Below, piece by piece: positions 21,680-38,266 of a stretch of DNA of 38,424 bases. Position 1 is the stretch's first letter. The number at the start of each line of letters is the position of its first letter. Where the stretch lies: assembly GCA_019233415.1 (NCBI GenBank), contig JAFAMK010000192.1:1-38424 (forward strand), written 5' to 3'. This stretch comes from Vulcanimicrobiota bacterium (lineage in GTDB: Bacteria; Vulcanimicrobiota; Vulcanimicrobiia; Vulcanimicrobiales; Vulcanimicrobiaceae). A program made the position numbers and the translations under genes. A model generated the notes under the pieces. It had not been told where the DNA came from. It worked only from the letters and a program-made list of their open reading frames with translations, and searched no databases.

Positions 21680-22300
21680 ATGCACGACGAGAGGGCAGCC
21701 TCCGACGTCGACGCGCTTTCCACGCGCATCCTCGTGGCGCTCGCGCGCCACGAGGCCGAGGCGCCGTGGATGCTCGGCGCGACCTCGCTCGCGCTCGCGC
21801 GCGCGCTCGGCACGGACGAGGCGCTGCTGATTCGCGTGCTCGCCGGCGAGGTCGACGAGGGCCGGATCGCCGCGCAGGCCGGCTACTACGCGACGCTTGG
21901 GCATCGCCCGCAGCTCTCGGACGAGCAGCGTGCCTTCTTCGAACGGGCCGTTCCGGTCGATCCCACGCTGCCGCTCGTCCCCGCCGCGCTCGACGCCGTC
22001 GTCGGCGAGCTGCGCCGAACGAAGACGCCGGGGCTCGCGCAGGCGTTCGACATGCTCGTCGCGACCGGCGCGCTGGTCAAGGTCGGCGCCGACGTCTACC
22101 GCGGCGAGCAGGTCGACGAGATTCGTGCGCGGCTCGAAGCGGCGATCCGGCGCGACGGCCCGATCACGATGGCGCGCTTCCGCGACGCGGTCGGTACGTC
22201 GCGCAAGTACGCGGTTCCGCTGATGGAGTGGTTCGACGCGACCGGTGTGACCGTGCGGGACGGGGACGTGCGGGCGCTTCGGCAGAATGCCGCGTCGTGA
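21680..22300 (+). CDS. Stand-alone SelB C-terminal winged-helix-like protein
   Basis: C-terminus RLEAAIRRDGPITMARFRDAVGTSRKYAVPLMEWFDATGVTVRDGDVRAL resembles the terminal winged helix of SelB; no GTPase domain. Confidence 0.8.
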   Translation: MHDERAASDVDALSTRILVALARHEAEAPWMLGATSLALARALGTDEALLIRVLAGEVDEGRIAAQAGYYATLGHRPQLSDEQRAFFERAVPVDPTLPLVPAALDAVVGELRRTKTPGLAQAFDMLVATGALVKVGADVYRGEQVDEIRARLEAAIRRDGPITMARFRDAVGTSRKYAVPLMEWFDATGVTVRDGDVRALRQNAAS

Positions 22301-25259
22301 GAACGGGGGGAACCCGTTGACCGTGCCGATTCTCGACGGCGAGCTGCGCGCGTTCTTGGAGACGCTTCCGCAGATCGTATGGCGAACCACGCCCGACGGG
22401 CGCAACGACTACTTCAACGGCGTCTGGTACGAGTACACGGGGCTGACGCCGGAGGCCTCGATGGGCGCGCGCTGGTCGGACAGCGTCCATCCCGACGACC
22501 GGGCGCGCGCGGTCGCGGCCTGGACGGCGGCGACGAACGAAGAAGGCCCGTACGAGATCGAGTTCCGGCTGCGCGCGCGCGACGGTTCGTACCGCTGGTT
22601 CCTCACGCGCGCGACGCCGCTGCGCGATGCGAGCGGCGCGATCGCGCACTGGTACGGAACGTCGACCGACATCGACGCGCAGAAGCGCAGTGAGGACCAG
22701 TTCCGCGCGATCGCCGAGGCGATTCCGCAGATGGTCTTCACCGCGCTGCCGAACGGCCGCATCGACTACGCGAACTCGCAGGTGTACGACTACACCGGCT
22801 CGCCGCGCGGCGACTTCGCCGCCTGGGCGTGGGACGAGGTCGTGCACCCGGACGACTTCACCGACGCGTTCGACATGTGGCGGCGCGCGGTTGCGACCGG
22901 TGAACCGTTCGAGGGCGAGGTGCGGCTGCAGCGCCGCGACGGGAGCTACCGCTGGTTCATCGTCCGCGCAAGCGCGGTGCGCGACCCGGCGAACGGTGAC
23001 GTCACGCGCTGGTTCGGCACCTGCACCGACGTCGACGACTTGCACGGCGCCGCCGACCGCGACGCGTTCCTCGCCGGCGCCGACGAGCTGTTCGCGGTCG
23101 AGCTCGACAGCGGCGCGATCTTGCGCGCGGTCTCGCGCGCCGCGGTGCAGTCGTTCGCCGACTTCGTGCTGCTCGATCTCGCCGACGAGGGCGGCCGGCT
23201 CGTACGCGCGGTCGTCGAGCACCGCGACCCGCGCCGGCGCGGGCCGTTCCAGCGCTCGATCGGGTCGTACACGCCGGTCGACCATCCGGTCCACCCGATC
23301 GCCGCGGCGTGGCGCAGCGGCGAAGGCGTCCTCGTGCCGCGGATCGACGAATCGTGGTGGGTGCGCGCGGCGGCCGACGAGGCGCACCTCACGCGCATGC
23401 GCACCGAAGGACTCTCGTCGCTGATCACGGTCGTCATCGTTTCGCACGGGCGGCGCTACGGCGTGCTGACGTTCTGCCGCAACCGCAACGCGCACCCGTA
23501 CGGCGACGCCGACCTCGCGACCGCGGAAGAACTGGCGCGCCGGATCGGCGCCGCGCTCGAAAACGCGCGCCTCTATCAGGAAGCGCGCGTCGCGGTCGAG
23601 ACGCAGCGGCGCATCGCGGAGCGCGAGGCGTTCTACGCGCGGCTGGGCGAATCGCTCGCGGAGACGCTCGACCTGCGCGAGACGCTCGAGGCCGCGACGC
23701 GTCTGTTGGTCCCGCTGTTCGCCGACTGGGCGGTGGTGAACTTGATCGACGAGGACGACGCGCTGTTCCTCGCCGCTTCGCACCACCGCGACGCCGACTT
23801 GGACAAGCGCACGAGCACGCTGCTCGACCTGCGCTACCTCGCCACCGACGCCGGCGGCGGTTCGCCGGCGGTCGTGCGCACGAAGCGACCGCTGCTGTAC
23901 GAGCACCTCCCCGAAGGCGGGATCGGCGCGGTGACCGGTCCCTACCGCGAGGCGATTCGCTCGCTCGGCGTCGTCTCGGCGGTGATCGTGCCGATCGCGT
24001 TCGGCGGCGCGGTGCGCGGGACGGTCGCGATCATGTACGACCGCACCTCGGGGCGGCACTACTCGGCCGACGACCTGCCGTTCTTCGTCGAGGTCGCGCG
24101 CCGGCTCTCGCCGGCGATCGGGAACGCGGAGGCGTACGAGCGCGAGCGGCGCGTCGCGCGCACGTTCCAAGCCGCCGCGCTGACGACGGAGCTGCCGCGC
24201 GTCCCCGGCACCTCGTTCGACGCGCTGTACGAAGCCGGCCGCAGCGAGGCGCTGATCGGCGGCGACTGGTACGACGCGTTCCGCGTCGCCGACGGCCGGA
24301 TCGTCATGTCGGTCGGCGACGTCGCAGGCAGCGGGCTCGACGCGGCGGCGACGATGGCGGCGATTCGGCAGAGCTTGCGCGGCGCGGCGGCGATCAACCC
24401 CGACCCGTCGGTAATGCTCGACGCCGCCGACAAGGTGCTGCGCTCGCAGGTGCCCGACACGTTCGTGACCGCGTGGGTCGGCGTGATCGATCCGGTGTGG
24501 GCGACGCTCGCGTGCGCCGGCGCCGGGCATCCGCCGCCGCTGCACCGCAACGTGCTGTACGAGGTCGAGCAGCTTCCCGGCGGCGGGCTCCCGCTCGGTC
24601 TGCGCGAGCGCGGCCAGGACGTCACGCGCTCGTTCGAGATCGAACCGGACACGACGGTGCTGCTCTACACCGACGGCCTCGTCGAAGCGGGGCGCGACTT
24701 GATCGCAGGCGAGGCCGCGCTCGCCGCGGCGCTGCGCGAGGCCGACCTGCAGGCCGCGCCGGCGCAGGCGATCCACGAAGCGGTTCTCGACGGGCGCGGC
24801 GCGAGCGACGACGTCGCGCTACTCGTCGTCGCGTTCCGCCGCTCGCTGGTCGACGTCGGCGGTGACCGCGGTGCGCTGCGCTGGACGTTCGCGGTCGACG
24901 ACGGAACGGCCGCCGGCGCGGCGCGCCACGCGATGGTCGACGCGCTCGAGCGGCGCGGCGTCGGCGAGACCGACCGGACCGTCGCGGAGCTGGTCTACGC
25001 GGAGCTGGTCGGGAACGCGAAGCGCTACGCGCCCGGCGCGGTCGACGTCGCACTCGACCTCAGCGGCGAGTACGCCGTCCTGCACGTGCTCGACCGCGGC
25101 AGCGGCTTTCAGCACAATGCCCGCCTCCCGGCCGACGCGCTCGCCGAGAGCGGCCGCGGCCTCTTCATCGTCGCCTCGATCGTCGAGGAGTTCGCCGTCA
25201 CCCGCGGCATTCGCGCCGGTGCCCACGCCCGCGCCGTCCTGAAAGGCCGCCTCGGGTAG
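22287..25259 (+). CDS. PAS-PAS-GAF-GAF-SpoIIE phosphatase-HATPase regulatory protein
   Basis: Two PAS repeats (VHPDD, DGSYRWF, STDIDAQKR), two GAF-like regions, GGDWYDAFRVADGRIVMSVGDVAGSGLDAAATMAAIRQSLR, C-terminal ATPase (ELVGNAKRYAPG, DRGSGF, SGRGLFIV). True start may be TTG 22317 or GTG 22323. Confidence 0.92.
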   Translation: MPRRENGGNPLTVPILDGELRAFLETLPQIVWRTTPDGRNDYFNGVWYEYTGLTPEASMGARWSDSVHPDDRARAVAAWTAATNEEGPYEIEFRLRARDGSYRWFLTRATPLRDASGAIAHWYGTSTDIDAQKRSEDQFRAIAEAIPQMVFTALPNGRIDYANSQVYDYTGSPRGDFAAWAWDEVVHPDDFTDAFDMWRRAVATGEPFEGEVRLQRRDGSYRWFIVRASAVRDPANGDVTRWFGTCTDVDDLHGAADRDAFLAGADELFAVELDSGAILRAVSRAAVQSFADFVLLDLADEGGRLVRAVVEHRDPRRRGPFQRSIGSYTPVDHPVHPIAAAWRSGEGVLVPRIDESWWVRAAADEAHLTRMRTEGLSSLITVVIVSHGRRYGVLTFCRNRNAHPYGDADLATAEELARRIGAALENARLYQEARVAVETQRRIAEREAFYARLGESLAETLDLRETLEAATRLLVPLFADWAVVNLIDEDDALFLAASHHRDADLDKRTSTLLDLRYLATDAGGGSPAVVRTKRPLLYEHLPEGGIGAVTGPYREAIRSLGVVSAVIVPIAFGGAVRGTVAIMYDRTSGRHYSADDLPFFVEVARRLSPAIGNAEAYERERRVARTFQAAALTTELPRVPGTSFDALYEAGRSEALIGGDWYDAFRVADGRIVMSVGDVAGSGLDAAATMAAIRQSLRGAAAINPDPSVMLDAADKVLRSQVPDTFVTAWVGVIDPVWATLACAGAGHPPPLHRNVLYEVEQLPGGGLPLGLRERGQDVTRSFEIEPDTTVLLYTDGLVEAGRDLIAGEAALAAALREADLQAAPAQAIHEAVLDGRGASDDVALLVVAFRRSLVDVGGDRGALRWTFAVDDGTAAGAARHAMVDALERRGVGETDRTVAELVYAELVGNAKRYAPGAVDVALDLSGEYAVLHVLDRGSGFQHNARLPADALAESGRGLFIVASIVEEFAVTRGIRAGAHARAVLKGRLG

Positions 25260-25283: not shown

Positions 25284-25299
25284 GGATTGTATACAATCC
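25284..25299. promoter_or_regulatory. Perfect 16-bp palindrome, candidate GntR-family operator
   Basis: GGATTGTATACAATCC, 16 nt before the mutase ATG. Confidence 0.7.
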
Positions 25300-25315
25300 G
25301 ATCCGGAGGTTGCCC

Positions 25316-26988
<1,673 letters not shown>

Positions 26989-26992
<4 letters not shown>

Positions 26993-27912
26993 TCGCGCAC
27001 CGCGTGCAGCGCGACCTCGCGCGCGCGATCTCGGCGGTCGAGAACGGCCACACCGACGTCCGCGGCGCGCTGGCGCAGTTCGCGGCGCTCGGCCACGCGC
27101 AGCGAAACGGTGCGCGCGCCGACGTCATCGGGATCACCGGGCCGCCCGGCGCAGGAAAATCCACGCTGGTCGACCGCCTTATCGAGGGCTTTCGCGCGAA
27201 CGGCGAGACGGTCGCGGTGATCGCGGTCGACCCGTCGTCGCCGTTCACGCACGGCGCGGTGCTCGGCGACCGCGTGCGCATGCAGCGCCACGCCGGCGAC
27301 CGCGGGGTCTTCATTCGCAGCATGGCCTCGCGCACGGCGGGCGGCGGGCTCGCCCCGGCGACGCGCGACGCGGTGCGGCTCGCCGACGCGGCGGGGTTCG
27401 ACGTCGTCATCGTCGAGACGGTCGGCGTCGGCCAAGTCGAGCTGGAGATCGTCGCGGTCGCCGACGTCATCGTCGTCGTGACGGTTCCCGCGCTCGGCGA
27501 CAGCGTGCAGACGATCAAGGCCGGGCTGACGGAGATCGCGGACATGTTCGTCGTCAACATGGCCGACCGGCCCGGCGCGAACGCGACCGCGCTCGACCTC
27601 AAACACATGGTGCGCGAGGGCGCGCGCGAGATCCCCGTCCTGCAGACGGTCGCGCAGGACGGGACCGGCCTTCCGGCGCTGCTCGACGCGCTCGCGGCGA
27701 AGCGCGGCGCCGGCGACTCGAACGCGGTCCGCGCCGTGCGCTTCGAGGTCGTGCGCCGCGCGCGCGACGCGGCCGTGCGCGCCGCGCTGGCGGCGCTCGA
27801 CTCGGACGACGCGTCCGCGGTCCTCGACGGCCTGCGCGACCATACGATCTCCCGCAACGACGCGGTCGATGCGCTGCTCGCGATCCTCGGAGGACCGGCC
27901 CATGCCCATTAA
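26989..27912 (+). CDS. MeaB/ArgK-family GTPase, mutase chaperone
   Basis: [52 protein letters not shown]...[18 protein letters not shown] start overlaps the mutase TGA. Confidence 0.94.
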
Positions 27913-28327
27913 AGTGCTCGTCGCCAAGCCCGGGCTCGACGGCCACGACCGTGGCGCGAAGATCGTCGCGCGCGCACTGCGCGACGCGGGGATGGAGGTC
28001 GTCTACACCGGCCTGCACCAGACGCCGGAGATGATCGTGAACGCCGCGATCCAGGAAGACGTCGACGTGGTCGGCGTGAGCATCCTCTCGGGCGCGCACA
28101 TGACGGTCTTCCCGAAGATCATGGACCTGCTGCACGAGCGGGAGGTCGACGACATCGTCGTCGTCGCCGGCGGCGTGATCCAGGAGAACGACGTGCCGAA
28201 GCTGCGCGCGCTCGGCGTGCGCGAGGTCTTCAACGCGGAGGCTTCGACGCAGGACCTGATCGAGGGGATCGAGCGGATCGTCGCCGCGCACGGGCGCGAC
28301 GCGGCGCGCCGCGCGGCGCAGGCATGA
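27902..28327 (+). CDS. hcmB: B12-binding small subunit of acyl-CoA mutase
   Basis: [37 protein letters not shown] with DxHxx[20 protein letters not shown]. Confidence 0.88.
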
Positions 28328-29721
28328 TCGCCTCGCCGGCCGCCGCGTGGCCGCCGGTCTACGACCCGGCATACCGCCCGCGCGACGACCAACCGTACTG
28401 GGACCGCGCGCGCGAGACGATGTCGGCCGACGAGCGCGCCGCGCACATCTTGCAGAAGGTTCAGGCGCTGATGGCGTGGGCGTGGGAGCGCGCGCCGTTC
28501 TATCGCGCGCATTGGCGCATGGCGGGGCTCGAGCCCGGCGACGTGCGATCGCTCGACGACTTCGCGCGCGTCCCGACGATCAGCAAGGCCGATCTGCGCG
28601 CCGATCAAGCCGTCCACCCGCCGTTCGGCTCGTACCTGTGCGTCGAACCGCACGAGGTCGCGCGCGTGCACGGCACGTCGGGCACGAGCGGCCGTCCGAC
28701 CGCGTTCGCCTGGACGCGCGACGACTACGCGCGGATCGCCGAGGCGCATGCGCGGATCATGTGGAGCTTCGGGCTGCGCCCGAGCGACCTCGTCTTCGTC
28801 GGCTCGATCTTCTCGCTGTATGTCGGCTCGTGGGGAACGCTTGCGGGCGTCGAGCGGCTCGGTGCGGCGAGCTTTCCGTTCGGTGCCGGCGTTCCGGGTA
28901 TGACGCTGCAGGCGCTCTCGTGGATGCAGCAGATGCGCCCGAGCGCGTTCTACGGGACGCCCTCGTACGCGTTGCGGCTCGCGGAGACCGCGCGCGCGGA
29001 GGGGATCGACCCGCAGGGGCTCGGCCTGCGGCTGATGTTCTTCTCCGGCGAGCCCGGCGCCGGCATCCCCGCGATGAAGCAGTTGATCCAAGAGACATTT
29101 GGCGCCGCGTGCATCGATACCGGCAGCATGGGCGAGGTCACCCCATGGATGAACGTCGCCGAGTGCGCGCACCGCACCGGGATGCACCTGTGGCAAGACC
29201 TCGTGTATGCCGAGCTGCTCGACCCGCAGACGCTGCGCCCGCTGCCGTTCGGCGCGACGGGGACGCCGGTCTACACGCAGCTCGAACGGCGCGGTCAGCC
29301 GATGATCCGTCTCGTCTCAGGCGACCTCGCCGAATGGACCGACGCGCCGTGCCCGTGCGGGCGCACGTACCCACGCTTCCCGCGCGGGATCGTCGGCCGC
29401 ATCGACGACATGCTCGTCATCCGCGGCGAGAACATCTATCCTAGCGCGGTCGAAGAGGTGCTGCGCGCGTTCGCCGAGGTCGGGACCGAGTTCGAGATCG
29501 TCGTGACGCGCCCGCGCGCGCTCGACGAGCTGACCGTGCGCGCCGAACTGGTCGCGCCGTGCGACGAGGACGCGCTGCGCGAACGGATCGTCGCGCGGAT
29601 GAAGCGCCAGCTCGGGATTCGTCCGGAGATCGCGTTCGCGCCGGCCGGGACGCTGGCGCGCACCGACCTCAAGTCGCGCCGCGTCCGCGACGAGCGCGAT
29701 CACATCGCGCCGACCGCATAG
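28324..29721 (+). CDS. PaaK-like acyl-CoA ligase, candidate 2-hydroxyisobutyrate-CoA ligase
   Basis: [79 protein letters not shown] overlap with hcmB. Confidence 0.9.
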
Positions 29722-29770: not shown

Positions 29771-30412
29771 ATGGAATCCGTCACCACGTACGACCGCGTC
29801 CTCGCCGAATTGCGCGGGGCGATTCTCGCCGGCCTTCACCCGCCGGGCAGCCGCCTGCGCCAGGTCGAGCTGGCCGAGCAGTACCGGACGAGCCGCATCC
29901 CGCTGCGCGAGGCGCTGCGCACGCTCGAAGCCGAGGGGCTCGTCACCAGCGAGGCCAACCGCGGCGCGACCGTCGCGCCGCTCGACGCGCAGGACCTGAG
30001 CGAGCTGTACGTCTTCCGGCTGGCGCTGGAGCGCGTCACCGCGCGCGCCGCGGCGGCGCGCCGCGTCGACCTGCGCCCGCGGGTCGCGGCCTGGCGCGCC
30101 GAGGCGCGCGCCGCCCTGCGCCAGGGCCGGATCGAGCCGCTGATCGCCGCCGACGCGGCGTTCCACATGGCGATCGCCGAGGTGGCGGGGAACCGCCACG
30201 TGCGGGCGGCGCTCGACGGCCGCTGGGCGCACATCGCGCGCGCGATGCGGCTCTACCTGCGCACGTCGAGCTACCGCGACACCGTCTGGGACGAGCACAT
30301 GGAGATCGCCGAAGCGATCGCCGCCGGCAACGAAGACCTCGCCGAAACGCTGCTCGGCGCGCACGTCCAGCAAAGCGAAAACGTCGTCCTCTCGCGCCTT
30401 GGCACGACATGA
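29771..30412 (+). CDS. GntR-family regulator with FCD-type domain
   Basis: YDRVLAELRGAILAGLHPPGSRLRQVELAEQYRTSRIPLREALRTLEAEGLV wHTH, then alpha-helical effector domain (FRLALERVTARAA...). Confidence 0.92.
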   Translation: MESVTTYDRVLAELRGAILAGLHPPGSRLRQVELAEQYRTSRIPLREALRTLEAEGLVTSEANRGATVAPLDAQDLSELYVFRLALERVTARAAAARRVDLRPRVAAWRAEARAALRQGRIEPLIAADAAFHMAIAEVAGNRHVRAALDGRWAHIARAMRLYLRTSSYRDTVWDEHMEIAEAIAAGNEDLAETLLGAHVQQSENVVLSRLGTT

Positions 30413-30413
30413 C

Positions 30414-30476
30414 GAGGGCCCTTCGACAAGCTCAGGGTGACAGAGTCCCGTCACCCTGAGCCTGTCGAAGGGCCTC
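30414..30476. repeat. CTTCGACA-family repeat, inverted-pair form
   Basis: GAGGGCCCTTCGACAAGCTCAGGGTGAC-AGAGTCCC-GTCACCCTGAGCCTGTCGAAGGGCCTC, about 27-bp near-perfect hairpin. Confidence 0.92.
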
Positions 30477-38116: not shown

Positions 38117-38266
38117 CGCCCCTTCGACAAGCTCAGGATGACAGGGAATCGGGCTCAGAGTGATCGGGAATCAGGCTCAGGGTGACAGGGGATCAAGCTC
38201 AGGGTGACAGGGAATCAAGCTCAGGGTGACAGGGAATCGCCGTCATCCTGAGCCTGTCGAAGGGCG
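38117..38266. repeat. CTTCGACA-capped tandem repeat with 22-nt units
   Basis: Cap CTTCGACA, then units [RGCTCAGRGTGAYMGGGRATCR]n (GGCTCAGAGTGATCGGGAATCA, GGCTCAGGGTGACAGGGGATCA, AGCTCAGGGTGACAGGGAATCA, AGCTCAGGGTGACAGGGAATCG), closed by inverted cap CCGTCATCCTGAGCCTGTCGAAGGG. Confidence 0.92.

Follow-up and report, generated by a model that had tools for sequence, protein, structure and literature searches.

A conserved palindrome proposed as the GntR/FCD operator of a 2-hydroxyisobutyryl-CoA mutase operon in uncultured Eremiobacterota

Operators of the FadR subfamily of GntR regulators follow a consensus in which TKGT and ACMA boxes form a palindrome with 2-3 nt between GT and AC, and constant spacing has been reported for double sites that act jointly on both genes (PMC4494728). 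A recognition code has been described for the same subfamily, in which A/T at the K of TKGT is avoided when residue 28 is Arg, G/C is avoided when residue 40 is Pro and Asn at position 59 leans to A/T, the last without statistical significance (PMC4494728). Metal-binding FCD pockets with Asp/His ligands take organic acids (PMC7674646). A linked GntR gene is usual beside hcm-hcl-meaH gene sets, and in actinobacteria 2-hydroxyacyl-CoA lyase converts 2-hydroxyisobutyryl-CoA to acetone and formyl-CoA (PMC7176365). The papers we consulted on 2-hydroxyisobutyryl-CoA mutase (HCM) clusters mention adjacent GntR genes, and we found no description of an operator in them. Here we analyse a palindrome in a 38,424-nt stretch of DNA (the window) which, judging from sequence comparison, is very probably the operator through which a FadR-subfamily (FCD) GntR protein controls an HCM operon.

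The mutase operon and its regulator

The genes that follow the palindrome were called a mutase operon in the first-pass annotation, and homology of the mutase subunits and the ligase bears this out and sharpens it to an HCM operon (Table 1). Genes for HcmA, HcmB, HCL and MeaH-type proteins all occur together, in the order mutA-meaB-mutB-ligase-gntR; mutA overlaps meaB, meaB overlaps mutB, mutB and the ligase gene overlap by ATGA, and gntR starts 49 bp after the ligase gene, a gap in which neither a promoter nor a terminator was found. In the alignment, the large subunit carries RQIAGF and STDFDMPT as in HcmA (4r3u), whereas human methylmalonyl-CoA mutase has RQYAGF and SVAFDLAT; HcmA Ile90 and Asp117 are the HCM-type substrate-site residues that replace those of methylmalonyl-CoA mutase. 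Among solved structures, both mutase subunits are matched best by those of HCM (4r3u_A and 4r3u_C) and the ligase by 2-hydroxyisobutyryl-CoA synthetase (6hdw). By homology, the operon is the known hcm-hcl-meaH set, with predicted activity on 2-hydroxyisobutyryl-CoA.

Table 1 Features of the proposed operator and the operon downstream, in window coordinates
Feature	Position	Strand	Evidence
Proposed GntR/FCD operator, 16-bp perfect palindrome GGATTGTATACAATCC	25284..25299	.	Sequence; genome scan
Conserved 12-bp operator core ATTGTATACAAT	25286..25297	.	Once per genome in 10/11 genus genomes
TACAAT, possible -10 within the operator	25292..25297	+	Sequence
Shine-Dalgarno GGAGG of the mutase gene	25305..25309	+	Sequence
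HcmA-like large subunit, 2-hydroxyisobutyryl-CoA mutase	25316..26992	+	4r3u_A 735 bits, against 475 for human methylmalonyl-CoA mutase
MeaB/MeaH-type G-protein chaperone	26989..27912	+	PF03308; TIGR00750 above cut-off
HcmB-like B12-binding small subunit	27902..28327	+	Best structural match 4r3u_C
2-Hydroxyisobutyrate-CoA ligase (HCL)-like	28324..29721	+	6hdw 536 bits; next, phenylacetate-CoA ligase, 229
GntR/FCD regulator, last operon gene	29771..30412	+	Pfam domains; metal-ligand and DNA-contact residues as in linked homologues
Long hairpin after gntR, possible transcript end	30415..30475	+	-54.9 kcal/mol, z -8.0

As claimed at first pass, the GntR/FCD gene is the last of the cluster, 4.47 kb downstream of the palindrome. 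Its product contains the domains PF00392 GntR (59.5 bits, cut-off 27) and PF07729 FCD (75.4 bits, cut-off 24.3), and is assigned by this domain content to the FadR/FCD subfamily of the GntR superfamily. The FCD metal ligands D128, H132, H176 and H198 align with the D/H/H/H of mutase-linked homologues, and two unlinked GntR proteins carry N for D at the metal-ligand position. At the positions that correspond to the DNA contacts of E. coli FadR, the window GntR has V, S, R, I, P, R, A and N; of these, S, R, I, P, R and N recur in the phylum's mutase-linked homologues (G004 has H for N). We mapped code positions 28, 40 and 59 to FadR residues 35, 47 and 66; since the window GntR has no Arg at 28 and has Pro at 40 and Asn at 59, it is predicted to read TTGT rather than TGGT, and TTGT is the sequence present at the site.

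A consensus scan found no intrinsic terminator after gntR. The hairpin there (GGCCCTTCGACAAGCTCAGGGTGAC...) is an inverted repeat and one copy of a very abundant repeat, one arm of which appears again at 38121-38137; the repeat CCTTCGACAAGCTCAGG has 93 plus 83 matches in its own genome (one mismatch allowed), often as inverted pairs.

The palindrome, its rarity and its conservation

The self-complementary 16-bp sequence GGATTGTATACAATCC is present and perfect as first described, and its core TTGTATACAA matches the GntR-type pattern T-N-GT-N2-AC-N-A that had been proposed for it; it is a TKGT/ACMA palindrome whose GT-AC gap falls within the 2-3 nt of FadR-subfamily operators. It sits in a 56-bp gap directly before the mutase operon, between the stop of a PAS/GAF/SpoIIE-type phosphatase gene (22287-25259) and the mutase ATG at 25316, with its 3' end 16 bp short of that start codon. 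Perfect palindromes of at least 16 bp number 4 in this 70% GC window, against 4.8 expected under a first-order Markov model, and 16-bp perfection was dropped as evidence by itself because about five such palindromes are expected in so GC-rich a window. An AT-rich perfect palindrome is expected 0.01 times in the window, and the inner 12-mer ATTGTATACAAT 8e-6 times per window and 7e-4 times per 3.3-Mb genome; the length is therefore not beyond chance, and what is remarkable is the AT-rich sequence together with its conservation. A genome scan for other copies, proposed in the first-pass annotation, returned GGATTGTATACAATCC as the sole copy in its own genome with up to two mismatches allowed, and ATTGTATACAAT is likewise found there once. 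The looser pattern TNGTATACNA exceeded its reversed control by too little for a regulon to be defined, so the analysis was limited to the TTGTATACAA form. Palindrome matches in G079 and G081, whose neighbours are a glycosyltransferase and other unrelated genes, are probably due to chance.

Upstream of orthologous operons, where conservation had been put forward as a check and absence as a refutation, ATTGTATACAAT precedes the mutase in 10/10 operon-bearing genus genomes. Of the ten same-genus relatives, nine have it exactly once, in each case a short distance before the mutase start, and its reversed-pattern control gave 0 matches in the genus genomes. The one genus genome without the operon (G002, best mutase match 53% identical) is also without ATTGTATACAAT. 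Across ten loci the 12-mer is 100% identical, while flank identity is 40-44% over the 32 bp upstream and 43-45% over the 20 bp downstream; a core fully identical amid diverged flanks is a clear footprint and no by-product of recent descent. In six relatives with the mutase and without a linked gntR (G013, G015, G032, G049, G065 and G067) the site is absent as well. In other phyla, no such site was seen ahead of most HCM operons.

In eight genus mates the mutase and the GntR/FCD gene are arranged divergently, and a second, near-symmetric site near gntR (ATTGTATACACC, CTTGTATACGAG and similar) lies exactly 44 bp from the first in 8/8, a constant spacing set against site-to-gene distances of 22 to 28 bp across these divergent loci. 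In other genera and families, the site or a symmetric variant precedes gntR-mutase. The sister-family genomes G061 and G062 have site, gntR and mutase on one strand (with one mismatch in the site of G062), G025 has two copies of the altered but symmetric AATGTATACATT, its bases changed in step, and in Aquisalimonas, from a different phylum, gntR and the mutase operon are preceded by TTCTGTATACAGAA. A further site in G061, the 20-bp palindrome GAATATTGTATACAATATTC, lies before a gene that scores above the curated 2-hydroxyacyl-CoA lyase cut-off and, within L159 3938-6972, between that gene and a divergent gene for a nickel-pincer-cofactor-dependent isomerase (group 22), a location that would be compatible with a possible wider 2-hydroxy-acid regulon. 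The lyase gene lies within the mutase operon in G004 and G005 and directly after the ligase gene in G062.

At L162 (G071) 7530 and L163 (G077) 6975, GATTGTATACAATC adjoins another GntR/FCD gene; the G071 protein has the same SRIP recognition helix, with no mutase nearby, and a second regulon perhaps reads the same site.

Proposed switch and competing explanations

Conservation before orthologous operons, co-occurrence with linked GntR genes and the paired 44-bp sites support the operator reading. From the site, its conservation, this co-occurrence and the identity of the operon by homology, all observed, we infer binding, its sign and its ligand. A GntR dimer would read the two half-sites TTGT and ACAA and, when bound, would cover the likely -10/start region and block RNA polymerase; because the site lies over this region, 16 bp before the start codon, repression would be the simplest outcome of binding. 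The likeliest inducers are 2-hydroxyisobutyrate, its CoA ester and 3-hydroxybutyryl-CoA; a compound of this kind, bound in the metal-centred FCD pocket, would free the repressor, so that the operon is probably kept off until the substrate or the corresponding CoA ester is present. As gntR comes last in the operon and would lie on the transcript that its product controls, negative autoregulation from one site with one target is expected in the window, while in the genus mates the two sites 44 bp apart would serve both the mutase promoter and that of the divergent regulator. The switch would be of an ordinary bacterial kind, unusually well preserved and apparently with one target in the genome.

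The site could instead serve a different GntR/FCD protein encoded at another place in the genome, with the window's last gene controlling something else or having lost its role. The window GntR has diverged and relocated, G007 keeps the operon and a perfect site without a linked GntR gene, so that another protein might bind there, and the window's own genome has further GntR genes, one of which (G000:C349) is 54% identical to the genus-type DNA-binding domain and has the SRIP recognition helix. We nevertheless consider this improbable, because, within its genome, the window GntR comes closest to the genus-type DNA-binding domain (60%), its gene is linked to the operon and it has Asn at the FadR-66 position as in the genus type, where the C349 paralogue has Ser. 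The orphan operator of G007 lies at L149 9422-9433, and the gene upstream of it appears by eye to be DJ-1/PfpI-like.

It is less probable still that the palindrome is only a strong extended -10 or promoter element, kept for RNA polymerase and not for a repressor. TATACAAT is spaced from the start codon as a promoter would be, and the genus mates G001, G003 and G008 have TTGACC upstream about where a -35 would be expected, but a -10 box has no need of perfect symmetry, genus mates have a further near-symmetric site close to gntR at 44 bp, the site is missing where the mutase stands without gntR, and symmetry is kept in G025 despite changed bases. The earlier suggestion that TACAAT could also be the -10 is plausible by sequence, but a consensus scan showed neither a -35 for this promoter nor a full sigma-70 promoter at the site. 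An RNA hairpin that terminates or attenuates transcription of the upstream phosphatase gene, or that forms a leader structure, we regard as the least credible explanation and very nearly negligible: the leader can fold (6-bp stem, z -2.2), but loci with a divergent gntR upstream conserve the site equally, and the known GntR half-site grammar is satisfied. Terminator, riboswitch and other RNA readings were rejected as unsupported, the palindrome having no T-run, no terminator and no Rfam match.

Under the preferred reading, an operator of the linked GntR protein, the window differs from its genus mates in the regulator. Its GntR shares 41-44% identity with the regulators of the genus mates, which share 67-98% among themselves, and its mutase is 85-91% identical to theirs; gntR stands at the operon end and not divergently upstream, and the window holds no second operator. 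Regulator displacement, in which the divergent genus-type GntR and the second operator were lost and a distant operon-end GntR now reads the unchanged 12-bp site, is a tentative and rather doubtful explanation. In the tree, a test against one clade of the window GntR with the genus mates gave p = 0.067 and the grouping of all mutase-linked GntR proteins is weakly supported (63/79), and a firm claim of foreign replacement was dropped on these grounds. If displacement is true, the locus would be a natural case of a regulator swap under a frozen operator.

Comparison with known systems

The analysis offers a precise predicted operator for an HCM cluster and couples it with a regulator and the class of ligand likely to act on it; the relatives form a natural set for comparison. 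The finding also points to metabolism of 2-hydroxyisobutyrate (or of acetone and formyl-CoA) in uncultured Eremiobacterota, as suggested by the clusters of some relatives, which contain or adjoin 2-hydroxyacyl-CoA lyase, and such a switch could act as a 2-hydroxyisobutyrate sensor.

Known hcmAB/rcmAB-hcl-meaH operons are likewise linked to a GntR gene (PMC7176365; Methylibium petroleiphilum PM1 plasmid RPME01, L197), but the gene order of the window differs and its GntR gene is downstream. The proteobacterial HCM clusters compared here have other palindromes (of the CTGAATTCAG type) or none, with the exception of Aquisalimonas, which has a TGTATACA core. Three of these clusters (L096 3066-3079, L198 4030-4112 and L199 4005-4152) encode a differently built GntR helix, SRQPVTHAL, and have a common motif, CTGAATTC(A/T)G, in the gntR-hcmB gap, which is possibly a separate operator class of those clusters; Methylibium and Piscinibacter clusters (L197 3988-4106; L103 2966-3116) have repeated CGCATGT units between gntR and hcmB and no palindrome. 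With metal-binding FCD regulators of the DgoR/TM0439 type, whose effectors are organic acids, the window GntR has in common the FCD domain and the conserved Asp/His ligands (PMC7674646).

The closest known operator system resembles the window in its A/T-rich palindrome of TKGT/ACMA boxes with 2 nt between GT and AC, and in the placement of single or double sites near the regulated operon or within a divergon of regulator and structural genes. The window differs in having a regulator of another group, one target per genome and the regulator at the operon end, and in belonging to Eremiobacterota (WPS-2), a placement made by way of named relatives. The kind of system is already known; this member of it is new.
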